Below are positions 14,787 to 32,860 of a DNA stretch of 34,063 nt, in pieces. The stretch's first letter is position 1. Every line of letters starts with the position of its first letter. The notes below the pieces were generated by a model, which ran no database searches, was not told the origin of the DNA, and was given only the letters and a program-made list of their open reading frames with translations. The DNA comes from Gemmatimonadota bacterium (GTDB lineage: Bacteria > Gemmatimonadota > Gemmatimonadetes > Longimicrobiales > Gaopeijiaceae), in NCBI GenBank assembly GCA_027623325.1, contig JAQBXY010000032.1, positions 1-34,063 on the forward strand, given 5' to 3'. The position numbers were made by a program, and so were the translations under genes.

Positions 14787-15755
14787 ATGACCCAGTCGAA
14801 GCGAAGAGTCCTCGTGACCGGCGGTGCCGGTTTCATCGGTAGCCATGTCGCGGATGCGTATCTGGCCGCTGGGGCCGACGTGTGGATCGTCGACAACCTA
14901 TCGTCCGGTCGTAGGTCGAACCTCCCGAGCGGGGCTCACTTCGTCGAGATGGATATCCGCGATGATGGAGTCCGTGACCTGTTTCGCGAGGTGCGTTTCG
15001 ACACGGTGAACCATCACGCGGCCCAGATCGATGTGCGCGTGTCGGTGATGGATCCCGCGAAGGATGCCGGCATCAACCTCCTCGGCCTGCTCAATCTTAC
15101 GGAAGCCGCCATCGAGGTCGGGAGCCGGAGGATCGTATTCGTCAGTAGCGGGGGAGTGGTCTATGGTGAGCCCGATCAGATCCCCACCCCCGAGACCGCG
15201 CCGAAGCTGCCGCTCTCCCCCTACGGCGTCACGAAGCTTGGTGGTGAGTTCTATCTCAACTACTACCGCTACGTCCGCGGGCTGGAGTACGTCGCGCTGC
15301 GATACTCCAACGTCTTCGGCCCGCGCCAGGATCCGCATGGTGAGGCCGGTGTAGTAGCGATCTTCTGCAACCGACTACTGAGTGGTGAGCCGCTGACGAT
15401 TTTCGGCGATGGTGAGCAGACTCGGGATTACGTGTTCGTGAGGGATGTCGTCGCTGCCAACATGCTGGCAACGGATGTGGATATGGGAGAGGGCTACGGC
15501 CTCGACGCCCGCGCCTTCAATGTCGGGACGGGAGTCGGCACGAGCGTGCTGCAACTCGCTGCGGCTCTCGAGGGAATCGCCGGACAGGCTCAACCCCGGC
15601 GGCACGAGAGCGAGCGACCGGGTGAGCTTCGGCACAGCACGCTCGATTCAGGGCTGATCCGCTCCCGGGGCTGGACCCCGAGCTTCACCCTGGAACAGGG
15701 CTTGCGGGAGACGTACACACACATCGCGAAACAACGGGCCGGAAACGCCGAATGA
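14787..15755 (+). CDS. UDP-glucose 4-epimerase-like SDR
   Basis: The 322-residue extended SDR has GGAGFIGSH (Rossmann), DNLSSGRRSNL, NHHAAQIDV, SSGGVVYGE and the catalytic SPYGVTK (YxxxK), followed by RYSNVFGPRQDP and FGDGEQTRDYVFVRDV. These are marks of the GalE/NAD-dependent epimerase group. The substrate is probably a UDP-hexose or N-acetylhexosamine, but the sequence does not fix which. The ATG at 14787 follows the terminator and matches the family start. The stop overlaps the tolQ ATG by 4 bases, so the epimerase seems to be transcribed as the first gene of the tol-pal operon, which is an unusual companion. Confidence 0.87.
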   Translation: MTQSKRRVLVTGGAGFIGSHVADAYLAAGADVWIVDNLSSGRRSNLPSGAHFVEMDIRDDGVRDLFREVRFDTVNHHAAQIDVRVSVMDPAKDAGINLLGLLNLTEAAIEVGSRRIVFVSSGGVVYGEPDQIPTPETAPKLPLSPYGVTKLGGEFYLNYYRYVRGLEYVALRYSNVFGPRQDPHGEAGVVAIFCNRLLSGEPLTIFGDGEQTRDYVFVRDVVAANMLATDVDMGEGYGLDARAFNVGTGVGTSVLQLAAALEGIAGQAQPRRHESERPGELRHSTLDSGLIRSRGWTPSFTLEQGLRETYTHIAKQRAGNAE

Positions 15756-16471
15756 GTCCTTCTTTGCTCCTGCTTCAAGCTCAGCCACCGACGACCGCTT
15801 TCGAGATGGTCATCGGGGGTACGATGCCTACGATCATCGTCCTGTCGATTCTCGCGGTGGGCTCACTTTCATCGTGGTGGCTGATCTTCAAGAAGACGCG
15901 TCAGTTCAGGGAGGTACGGCGGCAAGGTGACCAGTTCCTCGACTACATGGAACGCGCGCAACGGCTCGAGGACGCCTACAAGGCAATTCTGGCATTGCCC
16001 GATTCGCCCTATGGCAGGGTCTTTCGTCAGGGCGTGAACTTTTTTAGTGAACTCCGGCCGGGAGCACTACGAGATGGCGCTCCGACATCCCCCGGTCTGT
16101 CCCTCACGCAACTGGAGGCGCTTCGCCTCGTTCTGGAGAAGGAAGAGGCGGAGGAGCGGGACGAACTGGCGCACGGGCTTGGCTGGCTCGCGGTCATCGG
16201 TTCTGTCTCGCCGCTGATGGGGCTCATGGGGACCGTCATCGGGGTGATGAACGCCTTCCTCGGGATCACGTCGTCCGGGTCGAGCAGTATCATGGCGGTC
16301 GCCCCGGGCGTAGCGGAGGCCCTGATCACGACCGTGGCGGGCCTCGCGGTCGCGATCCCCGCAGTCATTGCCTACAACCACTTCGTCGGAAAGCTCAACC
16401 TCGTGAGTGGAGAGCTGCAGGGCTTCTCGAGCGAGTTCATCGGTACCCTTGCACGAGAAGGTCGCGTCTAG
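15752..16471 (+). CDS. tolQ: TolQ/ExbB-type proton channel protein
   Basis: TolQ is the inner-membrane subunit that, with TolR, uses the proton gradient to energise TolA and the Tol-Pal bridge during cell constriction. The 239-residue protein has three membrane segments (about 22-44, 141-166 and 180-203) and a cytoplasmic loop between the first two. The conserved GLGWLAVIGSVSPLMGLMGTVIGVM and the ALITTVAGLAVAIPAVIAYN stretch are MotA/TolQ/ExbB signatures. The ATG overlaps the SDR stop as ATGA. tolR starts at the base after the stop. ExbB is the alternative, but tolB and pal downstream favour TolQ. Confidence 0.94.
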   Translation: MSPSLLLLQAQPPTTAFEMVIGGTMPTIIVLSILAVGSLSSWWLIFKKTRQFREVRRQGDQFLDYMERAQRLEDAYKAILALPDSPYGRVFRQGVNFFSELRPGALRDGAPTSPGLSLTQLEALRLVLEKEEAEERDELAHGLGWLAVIGSVSPLMGLMGTVIGVMNAFLGITSSGSSSIMAVAPGVAEALITTVAGLAVAIPAVIAYNHFVGKLNLVSGELQGFSSEFIGTLAREGRV

Positions 16472-16909
16472 ATGAGTTCCCTAGGCTCAACCCGGCGGGG
16501 CGGACGCAGCCGAGCCGATCTGCCTCTTAACGCCGAGATCAACGTCACGAGCCTGGTCGATGTCGCGTTCACCTTGTTGGTGATCTTCATCATCACCGCG
16601 CCGATCCTCCAGGGTGGAATCGAAGTCTCCATTCCGAGGGCGGATGTCCGTCCTTTGACCTCTCAGGAGCGGCCCTTCTTCGTCACTATCGAGCGGAGCG
16701 GGCAGATCTTCATGGAGGAGACGGCTGTCACGCTAGCCGAGCTCGAATCGGGGCTGCCCCAGCTGTTGGCCGGGGGGAGCGTGGAACGAATTTTCATTCG
16801 GGCGGACTCGATGGCGCCCTACGGTCCGGTCCTCAAGACGATGGCGATCGCCGTGAACAGTGGAATCAACTGGTCGGTGGTCGCGGAACCCTACGTCCCG
16901 AGACGCTAG
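16472..16909 (+). CDS. tolR: TolR/ExbD-type membrane protein
   Basis: The 145-residue protein has a short cytoplasmic N-terminus, one membrane segment (about 27-46) and a periplasmic domain. Asp30 in SLVDVAFTLLVIF matches the conserved proton-path Asp of TolR/ExbD, and NVTSLVDV is the family start of the helix. It follows tolQ with no gap and precedes the TolA-like gene by 3 bases, so the three subunits should be made together. Confidence 0.93.
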   Translation: MSSLGSTRRGGRSRADLPLNAEINVTSLVDVAFTLLVIFIITAPILQGGIEVSIPRADVRPLTSQERPFFVTIERSGQIFMEETAVTLAELESGLPQLLAGGSVERIFIRADSMAPYGPVLKTMAIAVNSGINWSVVAEPYVPRR

Positions 16910-16912
16910 CTC

Positions 16913-17683
16913 ATGTCTCGTCGCGTGGTGGACCCCTTCGATCGCCGGTCCATGCTGCTGTCTATCATCGCCCATTTCATGCTGTTCGCCCTTGGGTGGG
17001 CAAGCACGACGTACGACCCGCCGCAGATGGAGTTCATCACGTACGAGATCGAGCTGGTCTCGCCGCCGCCAGCGCGCCAGGCGGAGGTGCCCGTTCGGGC
17101 CACCGAACGCCTCGTGGTCGAGCGGCCGGAACCCGAGCCGACCCCGCCGGAGCCAGAAGTCGAAGAGATCATTCCGGTTCAGGCCCCTGACCCCGTGCCC
17201 GACCCGCCTCCCGTGGAGCGCGACAAACCGACCGAGGAGCAACCTCCCGAGGTCGCGGAGGAAGTCATGGTCGCCGCCGCTCCCGATCCACCGAGGGAGG
17301 AGCCTGAAGCGACGGGTGAGGGCCTCAACATTCGCATCAAAGGACTCCGCCGGGACTATCCGGAGTATTACAACAACATCATCCGTCAGATTCAACGGTG
17401 CTTCCGGTGGCAGGGTGGAGGAGGCTGGGAGACGACTGTTCGCTTCTCCATCAGTCGCAGTGGAAACGCGGAAGGGATCGAGTTCGAACGCCGGTCGGGC
17501 AACACCGCGTTCGACTTCGAAGCGATGGGCGCCGTCGACTGCGCCGGACAGGGGCGCTTTGGGGAACTTCCCGAGAACCTCCCGTACGATCTTTTTCCCG
17601 TTCGCTTCAGCTTCAGGCCCGTGGGTGATCCGGTCGAACAACCAACAACAGGTGACCCGAGCGAGGTGAGTTCCAAGCGATGA
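16913..17683 (+). CDS. tolA: TolA/TonB-like energy-transducing protein
   Basis: The 256-residue protein has an N-terminal membrane anchor (about 13-30), a Pro/Glu-rich periplasmic spacer (about 48-135, many PEP and PPP units) and a C-terminal TonB/TolA-type domain (about 145-240, from YPEYYNNIIRQIQRCFRW). Position between tolR and tolB gives it the TolA role: linking the inner-membrane motor to Pal/TolB. It is shorter than E. coli TolA and its spacer is TonB-like rather than a long Ala/Lys helix. Cys163 and Cys210 in the C-terminal domain could form a disulfide, as the TolA C-terminal domain does in E. coli; the pairing here is inferred. The stop overlaps tolB by 4 bases. Confidence 0.83.
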   Translation: MSRRVVDPFDRRSMLLSIIAHFMLFALGWASTTYDPPQMEFITYEIELVSPPPARQAEVPVRATERLVVERPEPEPTPPEPEVEEIIPVQAPDPVPDPPPVERDKPTEEQPPEVAEEVMVAAAPDPPREEPEATGEGLNIRIKGLRRDYPEYYNNIIRQIQRCFRWQGGGGWETTVRFSISRSGNAEGIEFERRSGNTAFDFEAMGAVDCAGQGRFGELPENLPYDLFPVRFSFRPVGDPVEQPTTGDPSEVSSKR

Positions 17684-19050
17684 GAGTCGGACGATGTGTG
17701 CGGGGGATCGCATGTGCAGGCGTGGGACTAGCGGTTGGACTTCTGCCGCTCGGAGGCGTGTCCGCTCAAGAGGCACTGCCTGGGGTAAGCCTTGGCCTGC
17801 AGTACGCGGATGCTTATCTGCCTGCCTTGGCCTTGAAGCCCTTCACCGGAAGCTTCGGTGGAGCCGGTGTCGCCCCTCAGGTGGAGGCGATCGTCGGCCG
17901 CGATCTGCGGAATTCGGATCGGTTCGAGGTCATGGACTCGCTGCCAGTCGGGCTCGTGGGTGATGATGTGGTGGACTACTCGCTCTGGGACCGCCTCGGG
18001 GCGGTCTGGCTCGTCAGCGGGCAGGTTGAAGGTGCGGGCGAAGGCTTCGTGCTCATTCTCGAACTCCACGACGTGGTATACGGCGAGGTGCGCGAGCGGG
18101 GGCGGTTCCGGCTCCCTCAACCGAGCGATGAGGACTTCCGGATGTCGGTCCACCGGACGTCCGATGAGATCGTGCGCTGGGCCACCGGAGACCCAGGGAT
18201 GGCAGCGAGCCGTATCGCCTTTACCATGACGGATAACGAGGGCAACAAGGACGTCTATGTCATCGATTCCGACGGGGAGAACCTGGACCGGGTGACCCGC
18301 TACAACAACCTCGTGGAGTCACCGGCGTGGTCCATGGACGGCGAACGACTGGCTCTGACGTCGTGGAAGACCGGTGTGCCCAGGATTTATGAGGTCGATC
18401 GCTTCGGCGGGAACGAGAAGATGGTGCCCCCGGTCCGCGGGGCAGGCGACTATATCACGCCTACCTACCATCCGGACGGGAAGACGCTCGCATTTTCGGT
18501 CCTGGGGAGCGATTCGCGGAGCGGGATCTTCACGTACGACGTCGAACAGGGATGTTGTCTGTCCTATCTGTCGGGAGGCCCGTGGTACGACATCTCGCCC
18601 ACGTACTCACCCGATGGGCGTTGGATGGCGTTCAATACCCTGCGCTTCGGGGACCAGGTACCTCAGGTCATGCTCATGCCTGGAGAGGGAGGGTCCGCAG
18701 AGACGCTCTCGCCCTACGAATACGGAAACGGAGGGTACTACACCTCCCCGGACTGGTCCCCGAATGGAGATCTCGTTGCGTTTCACGGCCGGATCGACTT
18801 CCGGGGTCGCTATCACATCCTGGTCGCCAATCTCGAGGACAACGGCAGGGTCCTCCGTCAGCTCACATCGGAGGGCAACAATGAGGACCCGAGCTGGGCA
18901 CCGGATGGGAGGCATCTGGTCTTTGTGGGTGAGCGTAGCTGGGGCTTCGGCTTGATGATCGTCGATGTGACCAACGGGAGGGTGCGCTCGCTCCTGGGTG
19001 GGCGTCGGGTCGGCGTGCCTGATTGGTCTCCCGCGCTCGCGCCGAGGTAG
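17680..19050 (+). CDS. tolB: Tol-Pal system periplasmic beta-propeller TolB
   Basis: TolB is the periplasmic partner of Pal. The 456-residue protein has a signal peptide (cleavage near residue 29 after GGVSA), an N-terminal alpha/beta domain (about 40-170), and a C-terminal six-bladed propeller of PD40 repeats. Repeat examples are RIAFTMTDNEGNKDVYVID, SPAWSMDGERLALTSW, TPTYHPDGKTLAFSV, SPTYSPDGRWMAFNT, SPDWSPNGDLVAFHG and DPSWAPDGRHLVFVG. Order and length match TolB. The ATG overlaps the tolA-like stop as ATGA. Confidence 0.95.
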   Translation: MRVGRCVRGIACAGVGLAVGLLPLGGVSAQEALPGVSLGLQYADAYLPALALKPFTGSFGGAGVAPQVEAIVGRDLRNSDRFEVMDSLPVGLVGDDVVDYSLWDRLGAVWLVSGQVEGAGEGFVLILELHDVVYGEVRERGRFRLPQPSDEDFRMSVHRTSDEIVRWATGDPGMAASRIAFTMTDNEGNKDVYVIDSDGENLDRVTRYNNLVESPAWSMDGERLALTSWKTGVPRIYEVDRFGGNEKMVPPVRGAGDYITPTYHPDGKTLAFSVLGSDSRSGIFTYDVEQGCCLSYLSGGPWYDISPTYSPDGRWMAFNTLRFGDQVPQVMLMPGEGGSAETLSPYEYGNGGYYTSPDWSPNGDLVAFHGRIDFRGRYHILVANLEDNGRVLRQLTSEGNNEDPSWAPDGRHLVFVGERSWGFGLMIVDVTNGRVRSLLGGRRVGVPDWSPALAPR

Positions 19051-19245: not shown

Positions 19246-19842
19246 ATGATCGTCCGTCGTTTTGTGGTTGCCGTTTTCGCTGCCACGCTCCTAGTGGGCG
19301 CCTGTGGTGGTGACCCGCCGCCGCCACCGCCGCCTCCGGCAGGTCCGGACATGGACTCCCTGCGCGCGTACAATGACTCGGTGGCTCGTGCGGAGGCCGC
19401 GCGTCGGGCCGACGCTGAGCGCCTGGCTGCAGAGCGTGCCGCAGAAGCGGAGCGTCAGCGCCTGATGCGCGAGGCTCGGACGACGCTCGAAGAGATGGTC
19501 TTCTTCGATTATGACATGTCTGAGATTCGTGAGGACGCCGCAGCTCGTCTCCGTGCCAAGGTCGCGATTCTACGTGCCAGCCCGACGGTGCAGATCCGCG
19601 TTGAAGGTCACGCGGATGACCGTGGTTCCACGGAGTACAACCTCGCACTCGGCAACCGCCGTGCAGAGGCCATCCGGCAGTTCATCACCGGATTCGGACT
19701 CGCGGAGAACCGCTTCGAGATCGTTTCGTTCGGCGAGGGCCGTCCGCTGCAGCAGGGCTCGACTGAGGCTGATTGGGCGCGCAACCGGCGTGGCCAGTTT
19801 GTGATCACAGCTGGCGCCAACGCGATCAATCCGGGCAATTGA
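19246..19842 (+). CDS. pal: Peptidoglycan-associated lipoprotein Pal
   Basis: Pal tethers the outer membrane to peptidoglycan. The 198-residue protein has a lipoprotein signal ending LLVGAC (Cys20), a poly-proline tract (about 24-33), an Ala/Arg/Glu-rich helical spacer (about 40-78) and an OmpA-like peptidoglycan-binding domain (about 80-190). That domain shows VFFDYDMSEI and the binding motif EGHADDRGSTEYNLALGNRRA, with the Asp and Arg that hold diaminopimelate. The ATG at 19246 is chosen because GGGAGAG lies about 7 bases upstream and the signal starts there; the frame is open further upstream. The proline tract and long helical spacer are additions to the minimal Pal layout. Confidence 0.95.
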   Translation: MIVRRFVVAVFAATLLVGACGGDPPPPPPPPAGPDMDSLRAYNDSVARAEAARRADAERLAAERAAEAERQRLMREARTTLEEMVFFDYDMSEIREDAAARLRAKVAILRASPTVQIRVEGHADDRGSTEYNLALGNRRAEAIRQFITGFGLAENRFEIVSFGEGRPLQQGSTEADWARNRRGQFVITAGANAINPGN

Positions 19843-19860
19843 CGGATGACCCTAGTGGGA

Positions 19861-19898
19861 CCCCTCCCCCGGTTCGCCGGGGGAGGGGTTCGCCTTAT
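19861..19898 (+). promoter_or_regulatory. Perfect hairpin sequestering the cpoB Shine-Dalgarno
   Basis: CCCCTCCCCCGG (19861-19872) pairs without mismatch with CCGGGGGAGGGG (19877-19888) around a UUCG loop closed by a G-C pair. The 3' arm holds the only good SD for cpoB (GGAGGGG), and the cpoB ATG begins 10 bases after the stem. TTCGCCTTAT follows, which is not a proper U-tract. The element can lower cpoB translation, partly terminate after pal, or protect the pal mRNA 3' end. Confidence 0.75.
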
Positions 19899-20705
19899 AT
19901 GATCAAACGTAACCGGAACAGGACCACGGCTCGCCTCGTCGGGGCGGTCATCCTCGCGGTGACTTCAGCCGGCTGCGCCATGAAGGGCGACATCCGGCTG
20001 CTCCAGGAAGAGCTTCGCGCAATCGCGGCTCGACAGGACTCGCTGGTCGCGGACTTGCGCGTCGAGGCGCAGTCGACTCAGGACACACTGCGAACGCAGG
20101 GTGATCAGATGTTCGACTTCCGCGGGGATATCAACCAACAGCTCCAGTCGATCAACCAGAGTCTCGTCAGGCTCGAGGCGATGGCAGGTGAGAGTCAGCG
20201 TGGCCTGGTGAGCGTGCGCGACCAGCTCGCCAACATTCGCGGGGCTCCGGGTTCGACCGGTCAGCAGGTGGCCACTCAGGACTCGGCGGGCACCGTGCGT
20301 GGGAGTGAAAGCCTGGGAGTTGGTGGATCGGGAAACCCCGATCAGCTCTGGCAGGTGGCCCAGGAGCAGTTGGATCGGGGCTCGTTGACCTCGGCATCCC
20401 GAGCGTTTCAACAGTTCGTGGCTGAGCACCCGAACGACCCGAGAAGGCCGGACGCGCACTTCTTTCTTGCAGACATCCTGACTCAGCAGAATCGTCCGGA
20501 GGATGCACTCCAGGCCTTTCAGGCGATCCAGCAGTTGTTTCCTACGGCACCTCGAGTTCCGGACGCCCTCTATCGAGTTGCAGTGCTTCAGGAGCAGATG
20601 GGTGACGTCGCAGCGGCCAAGGCGACGTTGGAGAGGATCGTGAACACCTATCCCGGTGAGATGATATCCATGCTCGCCCGCGAAAAGCTCCGCGAGATCG
20701 GGTAG
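19899..20705 (+). CDS. cpoB: Tol-Pal coordinator CpoB (YbgF family)
   Basis: CpoB/YbgF is a periplasmic factor that links Tol-Pal activity with peptidoglycan synthesis in Proteobacteria. The 268-residue protein has a signal sequence with Cys26 in TSAGC. The Ser at -3 is atypical for a lipobox, so lipidation is likely but not certain. A coiled-coil segment (about 30-95, with regular RLLQEEL, QQLQSINQSLVRLE heptads) is followed by a Gly/Ser-rich linker and three TPRs at about 145-265 (QLWQVAQEQLDRGSLTSASRAF; AHFFLADILTQQNRPEDALQAF). This is the YbgF layout. The ATG at 19899 is chosen for the signal sequence; an upstream in-frame ATG overlaps pal and the hairpin. Confidence 0.88.
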   Translation: MIKRNRNRTTARLVGAVILAVTSAGCAMKGDIRLLQEELRAIAARQDSLVADLRVEAQSTQDTLRTQGDQMFDFRGDINQQLQSINQSLVRLEAMAGESQRGLVSVRDQLANIRGAPGSTGQQVATQDSAGTVRGSESLGVGGSGNPDQLWQVAQEQLDRGSLTSASRAFQQFVAEHPNDPRRPDAHFFLADILTQQNRPEDALQAFQAIQQLFPTAPRVPDALYRVAVLQEQMGDVAAAKATLERIVNTYPGEMISMLAREKLREIG

Positions 20706-25263: not shown

Positions 25264-26391
25264 ATGATGAGACGTGCGGCGATGGTCCTTCCGATTCTGA
25301 TCGCGGCGCTTGGTGCGTGCAGCGACGAGGTTCTTGTGGTAGACACCACGGTTCCCGCGGCCCCGCGAGCGCTGGCTGCGAGCTACTACGCCGGCGTGGT
25401 CACGGTGACCTGGGAACTGGCCCCGGCGTGGGATGGCGAGGTGTTTCGGGTGTACTCCCGCCGAGTCACAGATGCGGACTTCTTCTTCATCGCTGAGGTC
25501 ACCAGCTGCATTCAGGATTTCTGCTCCTATCAGGACCTGAACGTCACGGCGGGCCAGACCTACGAGTACAGTGTTTCGGCCGTGAGCGCGTCGGGTGTCG
25601 AGGCACAGAGCGACTTCACGGTTGAAGTCTTCGTACCCCAACCCGTCGCTCCCCCGGTTCCAGACGCGACGGCGGTGATCGCGCTCGATGACGCGAACTA
25701 TTTGACGTGGGGCGTGGGATCACGCGTCGCGTCCGATTTTTCGCACTACAAGGTGTACTTCGACGATGGCTCCGAAGCGTTCCTCCTCGGTGAGACGGAT
25801 TCAGAGGGCTTTCTCGATCTCCTGGCTGTGAAAGGAGTTACCTATGCCTACTTCGTTACGGCGGTCGATTCCGACGGACACGAGAGCGATGGCAGCGTGC
25901 TCGGTGAGGGTACGCCCCGACCCGACTTCACCGGTGAGTGGCTCTACGACTTCTTCGATGTGCCCGCGAGCTCCGGGTTCCGCTTCGCTGAAGAAGAGAC
26001 AACGCTCCCCATCGTCGACGGCTCGTCCGCAACCCGGCACTTCCGCTTCGAGACGGATGTGAATGGCTGGTGGTTGGTCCCCGGCGCTCAGACGACCATC
26101 TACCCCACGGGTTTCTTGACGACGGCGCTGAAGTGCGGTGTGGCTGCCGACGCCCTATGCACGGACCTCGCTACTGCGCCTCTGTCCGGGTATCTCGCTC
26201 AGGATGTGGCCGTGACGACGCAGGAGAGTTACGTGATGCGGGTGATCGGAAACGACGGCCAGTTCCACTACGGGGTGATTCGGATCGGCCACCTGGGGTT
26301 CGACCAGAACGGGGACGCGATCATGATCTTCGACTGGGCGTATCAGCTGCAGCCGGGCAATCCCAACCTCGCCGAGTCGATCGGCGGCTGA
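25264..26391 (+). CDS. Fibronectin type III-like lipoprotein
   Basis: The 375-residue protein has a lipoprotein signal ending AALGAC (Cys19). Two fibronectin type III-like domains follow at about 30-125 (PAAPRALAASYYAGVVTVTW to YEYSVSAVSASG) and 130-220 (PDATAVIALDDANYLTW to YAYFVTAVDSDGHES). The C-terminal domain of about 145 residues begins at FTGEWLYDFFDV and matches nothing I recognise. It contains one Cys pair (LKCGVAADALCTD). It is probably a surface or periplasmic lipoprotein involved in binding. GGAGGA lies 1-4 bases before the two adjacent ATGs at 25264 and 25267, so the second may be used. A terminator follows, so it is probably a single-gene unit. Confidence 0.8.
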   Translation: MMRRAAMVLPILIAALGACSDEVLVVDTTVPAAPRALAASYYAGVVTVTWELAPAWDGEVFRVYSRRVTDADFFFIAEVTSCIQDFCSYQDLNVTAGQTYEYSVSAVSASGVEAQSDFTVEVFVPQPVAPPVPDATAVIALDDANYLTWGVGSRVASDFSHYKVYFDDGSEAFLLGETDSEGFLDLLAVKGVTYAYFVTAVDSDGHESDGSVLGEGTPRPDFTGEWLYDFFDVPASSGFRFAEEETTLPIVDGSSATRHFRFETDVNGWWLVPGAQTTIYPTGFLTTALKCGVAADALCTDLATAPLSGYLAQDVAVTTQESYVMRVIGNDGQFHYGVIRIGHLGFDQNGDAIMIFDWAYQLQPGNPNLAESIGG

Positions 26392-26409: not shown

Positions 26410-26456
26410 GAGCCAGAGGGCCGGGCGCACCGAGCGCCCGGCCCTCGCTCGTTTGG
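26410..26456 (+). terminator. Strong terminator after the FN3 lipoprotein gene
   Basis: GAGGGCCGGGCGC (26416-26428) pairs perfectly with GCGCCCGGCCCTC (26434-26446) around ACCGA. A further GAGC/GCTC pair extends the stem across a 2-base bulge. GTTTGG follows. It lies 18 bases after the stop codon. Confidence 0.85.
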
Positions 26457-30971: not shown

Positions 30972-31011
30972 AGAGAGGCCGGGCACTTCCCAGTGCCCGG
31001 CCTCTCTCTTT
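30972..31011. terminator. Bidirectional terminator between tatA and the PpiD-like gene
   Basis: AGAGAGGCCGGGCACT (30972-30987) pairs perfectly over 16 bases with AGTGCCCGGCCTCTCT (30992-31007) around TCCC. A CTTT follows on the + strand and TTGTTTC follows on the - strand. It lies between convergent genes and serves both. Confidence 0.9.
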
Positions 31012-31030: not shown

Positions 31031-32860
31031 CTAGAAGACCATCGGCATCTGGATCTGGTCCTCGTCCACCGGCGCCAGGACAATGTCGCGGCGATCAACG
31101 ATACGAGCTGCCGACCGGAGTGCGGCGATCCACTCCTGTAATCGTTGCTGCTGGAGTCGAAGGACTGCGGCTTCGCGCTGCTGTGGAATCTGTGCCAGCC
31201 ACGCGGTCGAGTCGGCTGCGGTCCGATCCAACAACTCGAGCACATAGGCGTTCGCGGGTGTCACCACGACCCCGCTCACCTCACCCGGACGTAGGCCGAA
31301 GGCTGCCCCGATCGCCGCGTTCTGCCTCCCAACGCCCGGGACGAAGTCGTTTCGGCTCAGCGGCCCGGCATTGCGGGCTTCGAGTCCGAGATCCGCGGCC
31401 ACGTTGGCCAGCGCAGCGCCCCCCCGCACTCGTGTAACGACGTCCTGAGCGTCGAGAGCCGCCCGCTCCATCTTGCGATCGAAGAGTAGAGTGGAGCGGA
31501 TGGAGGGCGTGGCATCAACCAATGACAGCACACCGTCAGGCTCCGAACTCACGACCTCAAGCGCGTAAAAGGCGGTTGACGTCTCGAAGACCGGACTGAC
31601 GTCCCCGGGTGATGCCTCTTCGAAGATCCAGTCGGCGCCCTCCGAAACCTGACCGGCACCGGCGACGAAGGGGAAGTTCTGGGCGATTTCGATGGTCGTG
31701 GCCGAGAGGCCTGCGGTCGCCGCGGCCTGATCGAGCGGCATCGCCTCGCCGAGGTCCTCGATAGAATCGGCCATCGTGAGCAACGCGATCTCACTGTCCT
31801 CCGTCCGAACGACCGGGATCAGGACGTGCCGGGCCTGGACGCTGTCCGTAGCCCATCGATTCTGCACCTCGATCAAATGGTAGCCAAAGGAGGTCTTCAA
31901 AGGACCCACGAGTCGCCCAATCGGCGCCGCGAAAACCGCCGAATCGAACGGCGGGGTCATGTAGTTCTTCGGGAAGACGCCGAGGTCACCGCCGACCGCA
32001 GCAGAGGACGCGTCGGAGGACTCTCGGCCCGCCACTTCAGCGAAATCCACACCGCCGGCGATTTCTTGGCGCAAACCAGCGGCGCGCTCCTGAGCCGCGA
32101 CCGTATCGGCGGCCGTCGGCGTTTTGTCGAGGACGACCACCTTCACCGTCGCACGTGCCGAGATTTCGAACTCGTCCTGGTTCGCTCCGTAGTACGCCGC
32201 AATGTCGGCGTCGGAAATGGTGAACATGTCGTCTTGGTATCGGCTGGCCGGGTTCATCGGCACATACCGAATCTCAACCTGTTCATTCTGGTCCCGGTAC
32301 TGCTGCCACAACTGACTGTCCGAGAGGTAGATACCCGAGGAGACTTGCCTCAGCAGCTTTCCGCGGGGGATTACGTCCCGGTAGTACGCTTCCAGGATCA
32401 GGAGTTGTTCTGGCGGCAGGGAATACAGAAACGACTGGTAGGCCGCCAGATCGACACCGCCGGCCTCGTTCGCGAACTGCGGGCGGAGATAGTCCGGTGG
32501 ATTAAACTGAGCAGCCTCGCTGATTTCTCGGTTCGTCACGGTGATGCCGCGTCGATCCAGTTCCTGCATGATCAGAAGCTGATTGACGACCTCATCGAAC
32601 GCCGCGTCCTCGATCTCGGTGTTCTGCTGGGAGCTGATGAGCTCTTCCTGGCCCCGCTGCACCTGGTCGTAGAGCTGGCGGTAGGCAGCCATGTACGACT
32701 CGTACATGACCGCGTCGCCGTTGACGGATCCGATCTCCCCTAGGCCACCCCCCGACTGCCCGGTAATGTCCATACCCCACTGAAAGACCATGAGAGCGAC
32801 GAAGGCAATCGCCGTAAACAGCATGATCGGCTTCGTCGCTTCTCGCATTTGACGCATCAT
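31031..32860 (-). CDS. ppiD: PpiD/SurA-like periplasmic folding factor
   Basis: The 609-residue protein has an N-terminal membrane anchor (about 11-27) and is predicted to lie mainly in the periplasm. The SurA-N-like helical region (about 40-200) is followed by a parvulin-type domain (about 235-345), with VDFAEVAGRESSDASSAAVGGDLGVFP and FGYHLIEVQNR. The C-terminal region ends with further helices. The residue that is normally the first parvulin His (in a RASHIL-type strand) is absent from the domain start here, which reads ARATVKVVVL. A later segment, QARHVLIPV, has such a His but no full domain after it. This suggests a chaperone with doubtful isomerase activity, as reported for E. coli PpiD. 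Two ATGs lie side by side at the start; GGGAGA on the - strand lies upstream. Confidence 0.87.
   Translation of the reverse strand: MMRQMREATKPIMLFTAIAFVALMVFQWGMDITGQSGGGLGEIGSVNGDAVMYESYMAAYRQLYDQVQRGQEELISSQQNTEIEDAAFDEVVNQLLIMQELDRRGITVTNREISEAAQFNPPDYLRPQFANEAGGVDLAAYQSFLYSLPPEQLLILEAYYRDVIPRGKLLRQVSSGIYLSDSQLWQQYRDQNEQVEIRYVPMNPASRYQDDMFTISDADIAAYYGANQDEFEISARATVKVVVLDKTPTAADTVAAQERAAGLRQEIAGGVDFAEVAGRESSDASSAAVGGDLGVFPKNYMTPPFDSAVFAAPIGRLVGPLKTSFGYHLIEVQNRWATDSVQARHVLIPVVRTEDSEIALLTMADSIEDLGEAMPLDQAAATAGLSATTIEIAQNFPFVAGAGQVSEGADWIFEEASPGDVSPVFETSTAFYALEVVSSEPDGVLSLVDATPSIRSTLLFDRKMERAALDAQDVVTRVRGGAALANVAADLGLEARNAGPLSRNDFVPGVGRQNAAIGAAFGLRPGEVSGVVVTPANAYVLELLDRTAADSTAWLAQIPQQREAAVLRLQQQRLQEWIAALRSAARIVDRRDIVLAPVDEDQIQMPMVF

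Follow-up and report, generated by a model that had tools for sequence, protein, structure and literature searches.

Several operons carry a stable stem, without a U-tract, at the boundary between two genes. In malE-malF, in puf and in the E. coli operons with differential mRNA decay, the stem is kept in relatives, lies in the gap or in the downstream coding region, and accompanies a product of the upstream gene that is expected in excess; 17 of 26 protective stems in E. coli are embedded in the coding sequence of the following gene (Dar and Sorek 2018, PMC5927463). In the cip-cel operon, the strength and position of the stems set the stoichiometry of the products (PMC4423207). Other stems between genes of an operon hide a Shine-Dalgarno (SD) sequence, as in cutF-cutO of Rhodobacter capsulatus, where the masking is relieved by a nascent-chain stall (PMC9973294), and ahead of mgtB in Salmonella, where the short mgtQ leader ORF accompanies the stem (PMC8092293). 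No mention of tol-pal-cpoB by name was found in the body text of Dar and Sorek 2018 (PMC5927463). Unequal output is expected from this operon, because E. coli contains approximately 1e5 copies of Pal (PMC7391070) and 4550 copies of CpoB (PMC4458516). We found no description, for Gemmatimonadota, of how a single operon gives rise to unequal amounts of Pal and CpoB.

The window, meaning the whole stretch of 34,063 nucleotides that was analyzed, carries on its plus strand the gene order tolQ-tolR-tolA-tolB-pal-cpoB, followed by nrdR and tatC. The tolQ, tolR, tolA-like and tolB genes (15752-19050) were assigned by best matches that fall below the curated cut-offs, with tolA weak. The pal gene, encoding the peptidoglycan-associated lipoprotein, extends from 19246 to 19842 and ends in a TGA at 19840-19842 (TIGR02802, 1.1e-34; its 118.7 bits fall short of the curated cut-off, 125.35). 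The cpoB gene (ybgF; 19899-20705) encodes a lipoprotein signal peptide with the lipobox TSAGC and a TPR domain, and matches TIGR02795 above the curated cut-off. Outer-membrane constriction and peptidoglycan synthesis are the processes in which Pal and CpoB take part.

Located 17 nt beyond the pal stop codon on the same strand is a perfect hairpin at 19860-19889, composed of a 5' arm at 19860-19872 (ACCCCTCCCCCGG), a TTCG loop at 19873-19876 and a 3' arm at 19877-19889 (CCGGGGGAGGGGT). The initial annotation described a perfect 12-bp hairpin; the pairing is indeed perfect, and the stem is 13 bp long. It also placed the only SD-like sequence of cpoB in the 3' arm, with the ATG 10 bases further. 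Both statements agree with our measurements, as the sole candidate, GGAGG at 19882-19886 (plus strand), lies within that arm, 12 nt from the cpoB ATG at 19899, and the distance from the 12-bp arm to the ATG is 10 nt. We considered and rejected an extra-stable UUCG tetraloop, since the loop is G(UUCG)C and not C(UUCG)G and its sequence changes among relatives, which have TGCG, CTCG, CCTG, GACAG and others. With a G-C closing pair, and a loop that is not kept in relatives, the UUCG sequence is on this comparison incidental.

The hairpin is exceptional within its own genome. In 100 dinucleotide shuffles of the gap in which it lies, no stem was as strong, and perfect stems of at least 12 bp occur 7 times in 380 kb of the source genome. 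By helix score it ranks third strongest among 295 gene ends, and a score of 30 was reached by none of 295 windows inside genes, both figures being based on rough ORF calls. A single copy was found in the 3.35-Mb genome when allowing up to 3 mismatches, and Rfam gave no family match at the gathering score within the window. Two other perfect stems were seen in the window. One of 13 bp at 26416-26446 (GAGGGCCGGGCGC-ACCGA-GCGCCCGGCCCTC) has no GGAGG in its arm, and lies between an ORF at 25264-26391, whose stop is 24 nt before it, and a formiminotransferase-domain gene in the same orientation, 31 nt further on. The other, of 16 bp at 30972-31007, lies 23 nt past the end of a minus-strand gene for a SurA/PPIase-like protein (31031-32860) and has a weak U-rich tail; it is of the terminator-like or protective type.

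In order to assess conservation, we collected cpoB relatives from 121 genomes belonging to the source genome's own family of uncultured Gemmatimonadota and read their pal-cpoB gaps. A search with the stem pattern matched 21 of the 121 genomes, once each, compared to one match for the reversed control. Twenty of the 21 matches are located at pal-cpoB, the exception being a U-tract terminator elsewhere in genome G006 (AAAAGCCCC...GGGGCTTTTC). A repeat or mobile palindrome was rejected on this basis, given one copy per genome and the near-exclusive location of the copies. Beyond the pattern itself, the junction of pal and cpoB carries an unusually strong stem in 27 of 35 genera (dinucleotide shuffles, p<=0.02 in at least one genome), and in 23 of the 35 the majority of genomes pass the shuffle test at this junction. 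Helix scores of at least 30 were obtained for 30 of 40 gaps following pal, but for none of 40 after cpoB and none of 36 before pal. Whole genera lack the stem (g11, most of g41, g15, g22, g42). So do the f3 relatives, which belong to the same order and whose pal and cpoB genes overlap or almost abut; f2 is mixed. Judged across these genomes, the hairpin is a conserved, locus-specific element, and its conservation is wider than could be known when the initial annotation was made.

Three stem anatomies can be distinguished. Type A, found in 30 genomes of 10 genera including the source genome, has its stem between the two genes, usually at a distance of 12-22 nt from the pal stop codon; the 3' arm contains GGAGG in 27 of the 30, and in 11 an in-frame ATG follows that GGAGG at 5-6 nt. 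The CCCCTCC/GGAGGGG pairing recurs in type B (18 genomes, 8 genera), but there the stem lies mostly within the first ~25 codons of cpoB and encloses a loop that can reach ~49 nt. Most of the type B cpoB start codons, which like all gene starts here are predictions, are a few to ~20 nt 5' of the 5' arm. Unrelated strong stems, mostly without GGAGG, make up type C (22 genomes, 13 genera); examples are CCCCACCCCCGGG/CCCGGGGGTGGGG in G100 and the canonical terminator of G024. The remaining 34 genomes, mainly of g11 and g41, are stemless. Stem types cluster on a Pal tree, which has few columns and many open forks. Two variants are informative as to what is retained. Relatives in genus g5 keep a stem and have mostly lost the GGAGG, and in G003 a C-G pair is flipped to G-C (CCCCTGCCCCGG/CCGGGGCAGGGG), leaving the stem intact and the GGAGG broken. 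Separately, G138 and G140 (L087 and L086; genus g57) have a perfect 13-17 bp palindrome in the signal-peptide stretch of cpoB (GCAGGGCGGCGGC/GCCGCCGCCCTGC), which possibly serves the same role through a different sequence.

The initial annotation called for an alignment of the gap across related genomes, and within the family such an alignment shows the stem kept with compensatory changes. For 29 type A stems, 91.5% of cells are paired, with two-sided changes in 7 pairs (21 cells). The covariation score is 0.194, compared to at most 0.102 when the partners are slid, and 0 of 500 shuffles reach 0.194. For 17 type B stems, 92.8% of cells are paired, with two-sided changes in 8 pairs (17 cells), and the score is 0.327, against at most 0.189 with slid partners and 0 of 500 shuffles reaching 0.327; here the outer ACCCC/GGGGT letters served to anchor the rows, two of which were moved manually, so that the outer register is fixed but the inner pairs are not. 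Stem sequences are related by descent, such that the shuffle counts are not probabilities and the slid control is the stronger of the two. As far as these alignments inform, two independent sets of stems, of 29 and 17 sequences, are maintained by compensatory mutation.

Given the location of the GGAGG, one explanation is that the stem was selected mainly to mask the SD, with cpoB off unless a ribosome or protein opens the stem, coupling CpoB to translation of pal. The folding model is in favor: the isolated stem has a predicted energy of -30.5 kcal/mol, compared to approximately -11.8 kcal/mol for SD:anti-SD pairing with an assumed anti-SD sequence (no 16S gene was found in the source metagenome-assembled genome), and the bases of the SD are unpaired with a probability of only ~1e-5. 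The GGAGG is kept in 27 of the 30 type A stems, in 11 of which the ATG follows at 5-6 nt, and there is precedent in cutF-cutO of Rhodobacter (PMC9973294) and mgtC-mgtB of Salmonella (PMC8092293). However, masking does not accompany the stem wherever the stem is kept, since type B pairing sits in coding sequence 3' of the cpoB start codon and cannot hide a start-site SD, and g5 (mostly) and G003 retain the stem without an intact GGAGG. These observations argue that the stem, and not masking of the SD, is the feature common to the lineages, and we consider masking doubtful as the main selected function. The initially proposed masking fits type A and is not supported as a general account, in keeping with the fate of the GGAGG itself, which is retained in the 3' arm of most type A relatives, mostly lost in g5 and broken in G003. 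In type A, the position of the SD within the stem and the frequent 5-nt spacing to the ATG indicate that masking very probably has a real effect in addition, and the near-invariant GGAGG together with that spacing suggests selection on the SD too.

The means by which such a stem might be opened also bear on masking. A terminating ribosome has a footprint that reaches ~10 nt past the stop codon, and the stem begins 17 nt past the stop, presumably beyond its reach; a ribosome terminating on pal should by this model halt ~7 nt short of the stem. Opening by a ribosome finishing pal, as initially suggested, is therefore unlikely, and when the footprint, its size taken from general knowledge, was placed on the pal stop in the folding model, the SD remained equally hidden.

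A ribosome could come closer by restarting. A possible leader ORF of 18 codons at 19846-19902 (plus strand) has its ATG 3 nt past the pal stop, traverses the stem, and its TGA overlaps the cpoB ATG (ATGA). Ribosomes leaving pal might restart 3-5 nt on at an ATG or GTG, translate across and melt the stem, and terminate at the cpoB start or inside it. A start 3-5 nt past the pal stop is found in most type A genomes, the type A leader frames traverse the stem to cpoB, either fused to it or ending near its start, and in type B it is the cpoB start itself that lies just 5' of the stem. However, the frame relative to cpoB varies, with ~9, 7 and 4 cases across the three frames, which is near chance, the leader has no SD, and it is absent in g5. 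We regard such a relay as extremely unlikely. A broader version would be that one ancestral stem shifted between the gap and the cpoB coding sequence, its arms kept by paired mutations, and became in the source lineage a ribosome-gated lock, in which ribosomes restarting 3 nt past pal would traverse the stem and thereby free or hand on ribosomes for cpoB, tying CpoB dose to Pal synthesis; this we consider very unlikely.

The C-terminus of Pal, encoded at 19806-19839, is a conserved tail. It has the form TAGxxxINP(G/A/P) in most genomes with a stem, among them 28 of 30 of type A, compared to 4 of 34 stemless genomes; across genera, the association of tail and stem is not significant (Fisher p = 0.14). 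SecM/CutF-like stalling on the tail INP(P/G/A) was rejected given this lack of a significant genus-level association and the wrong geometry.

Another possibility is that the hairpin acts as a partial terminator or attenuator, such that some RNA polymerases stop at the stem and fewer transcripts reach cpoB. In support, at least 5 T are found in the 8 nt after six type B stems, Rho is encoded in the source genome, and G024 (L039, genus g12) has a canonical terminator in its pal-cpoB gap (GGGTGCCGG...CCGGCACCCTTTTTT, ending TTTTTT), by which cpoB of that genome is probably severed from the tol-pal transcript. In the source genome, however, the GC-rich stem is not followed at once by a U-tract, as it would be in an intrinsic terminator, and its tail is TCGCCTTATA. 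The mean number of T per 8-nt tail is 2.3 for type A, 3.2 for type B and 1.7 for type C, and of the 30 type A tails a single one has at least 5. Moreover, the source genome has U-tract terminators elsewhere (CTTTTTTTCA, TTCTTTTT and TCTTCTTTTT), and the off-site copy of the stem sequence in G006 does carry a U-tract. The view that simple termination is insufficient for want of a proper U-tract is borne out by these tails, and attenuation is in our estimation distinctly unlikely.

The reading that we favor, at roughly even odds and by analogy, is that the hairpin is an intercistronic protective stem that ends a stable tolQRAB-pal mRNA and holds Pal above CpoB, with an SD lock in addition in type A. 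The stem would cap the tolQRAB-pal portion of the transcript at its 3' end, and once the RNA downstream is cut or lost it would block 3'-to-5' exonucleases, leaving the pal mRNA stable. The cpoB part would decay faster, and Pal would stay well above CpoB. In the source lineage, where the 3' arm holds the cpoB SD, the folded stem would also lower de novo translation of cpoB. We infer exonuclease protection, unequal mRNA levels and reduced cpoB translation, the decay step by analogy with described operons. A high Pal:CpoB ratio set through the hairpin, as initially put forward, is plausible.

Consistent with protection, a stem that is stable beyond chance lies at the 3' boundary of pal, has no U-tract and is kept in relatives, being strong at the junction in 27 of 35 genera while its position varies between the gap and the early cpoB codons. 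The g5 stems persist mostly without GGAGG, and PNPase and RNase E/G are encoded. Against protection, the stem is absent in whole genera and in the f3 relatives. Against protection alone, the near-invariant GGAGG of type A and its 5-nt spacing to the ATG, which protection does not need, suggest a further constraint. With regard to the processing machinery, RNase E/G, PNPase and Rho genes are present in the source genome (G000). It has two rho-like genes (C54:17878-19122 and C53:65308-66411), the second just under the curated cut-off at 496 against 509 bits. For RNase III, TIGR02191 matched none of 30 genomes (G000 plus 29 relatives drawn from its genus, family and order; 20 of high quality), in a search whose control was positive in 9 of 14 known genomes, and Pfam model PF14622 gave no match in G000. 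A stem kept by compensation in both noncoding and coding positions provides a natural series with which to separate mRNA protection from SD masking.

Comparison to the systems described above places the pal-cpoB stem among known kinds. Like the stems of malE-malF, puf and the E. coli differential-decay operons (Dar and Sorek 2018, PMC5927463), it is stable, sits at a two-gene boundary without a U-tract, is kept in relatives in either the gap or the downstream coding region, and follows a gene whose product is expected in excess. Unlike those stems, its 3' arm holds the SD of the next gene in one lineage, and what we know of it comes from sequence. As with cutF-cutO (PMC9973294), the first gene encodes an exported protein and the SD of its downstream neighbor is hidden in a stem between the two; the pal-cpoB stem, however, probably lies out of reach of a ribosome terminating on pal, and relatives retain it without masking of the SD. 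Like mgtQ and the stem before mgtB (PMC8092293), a short ORF and an SD-hiding stem lie between genes of an operon, but the pal-cpoB leader frame is not conserved. Its orthologous stems in relatives parallel those of selective RNA processing and stabilisation in the cip-cel operon (PMC4423207), a likeness drawn for pal-cpoB at the level of sequence. The best reading by these analogies is that the mechanism is ordinary in kind, belonging to the class of intercistronic stems, and that the overlap with the SD is peculiar to one lineage.
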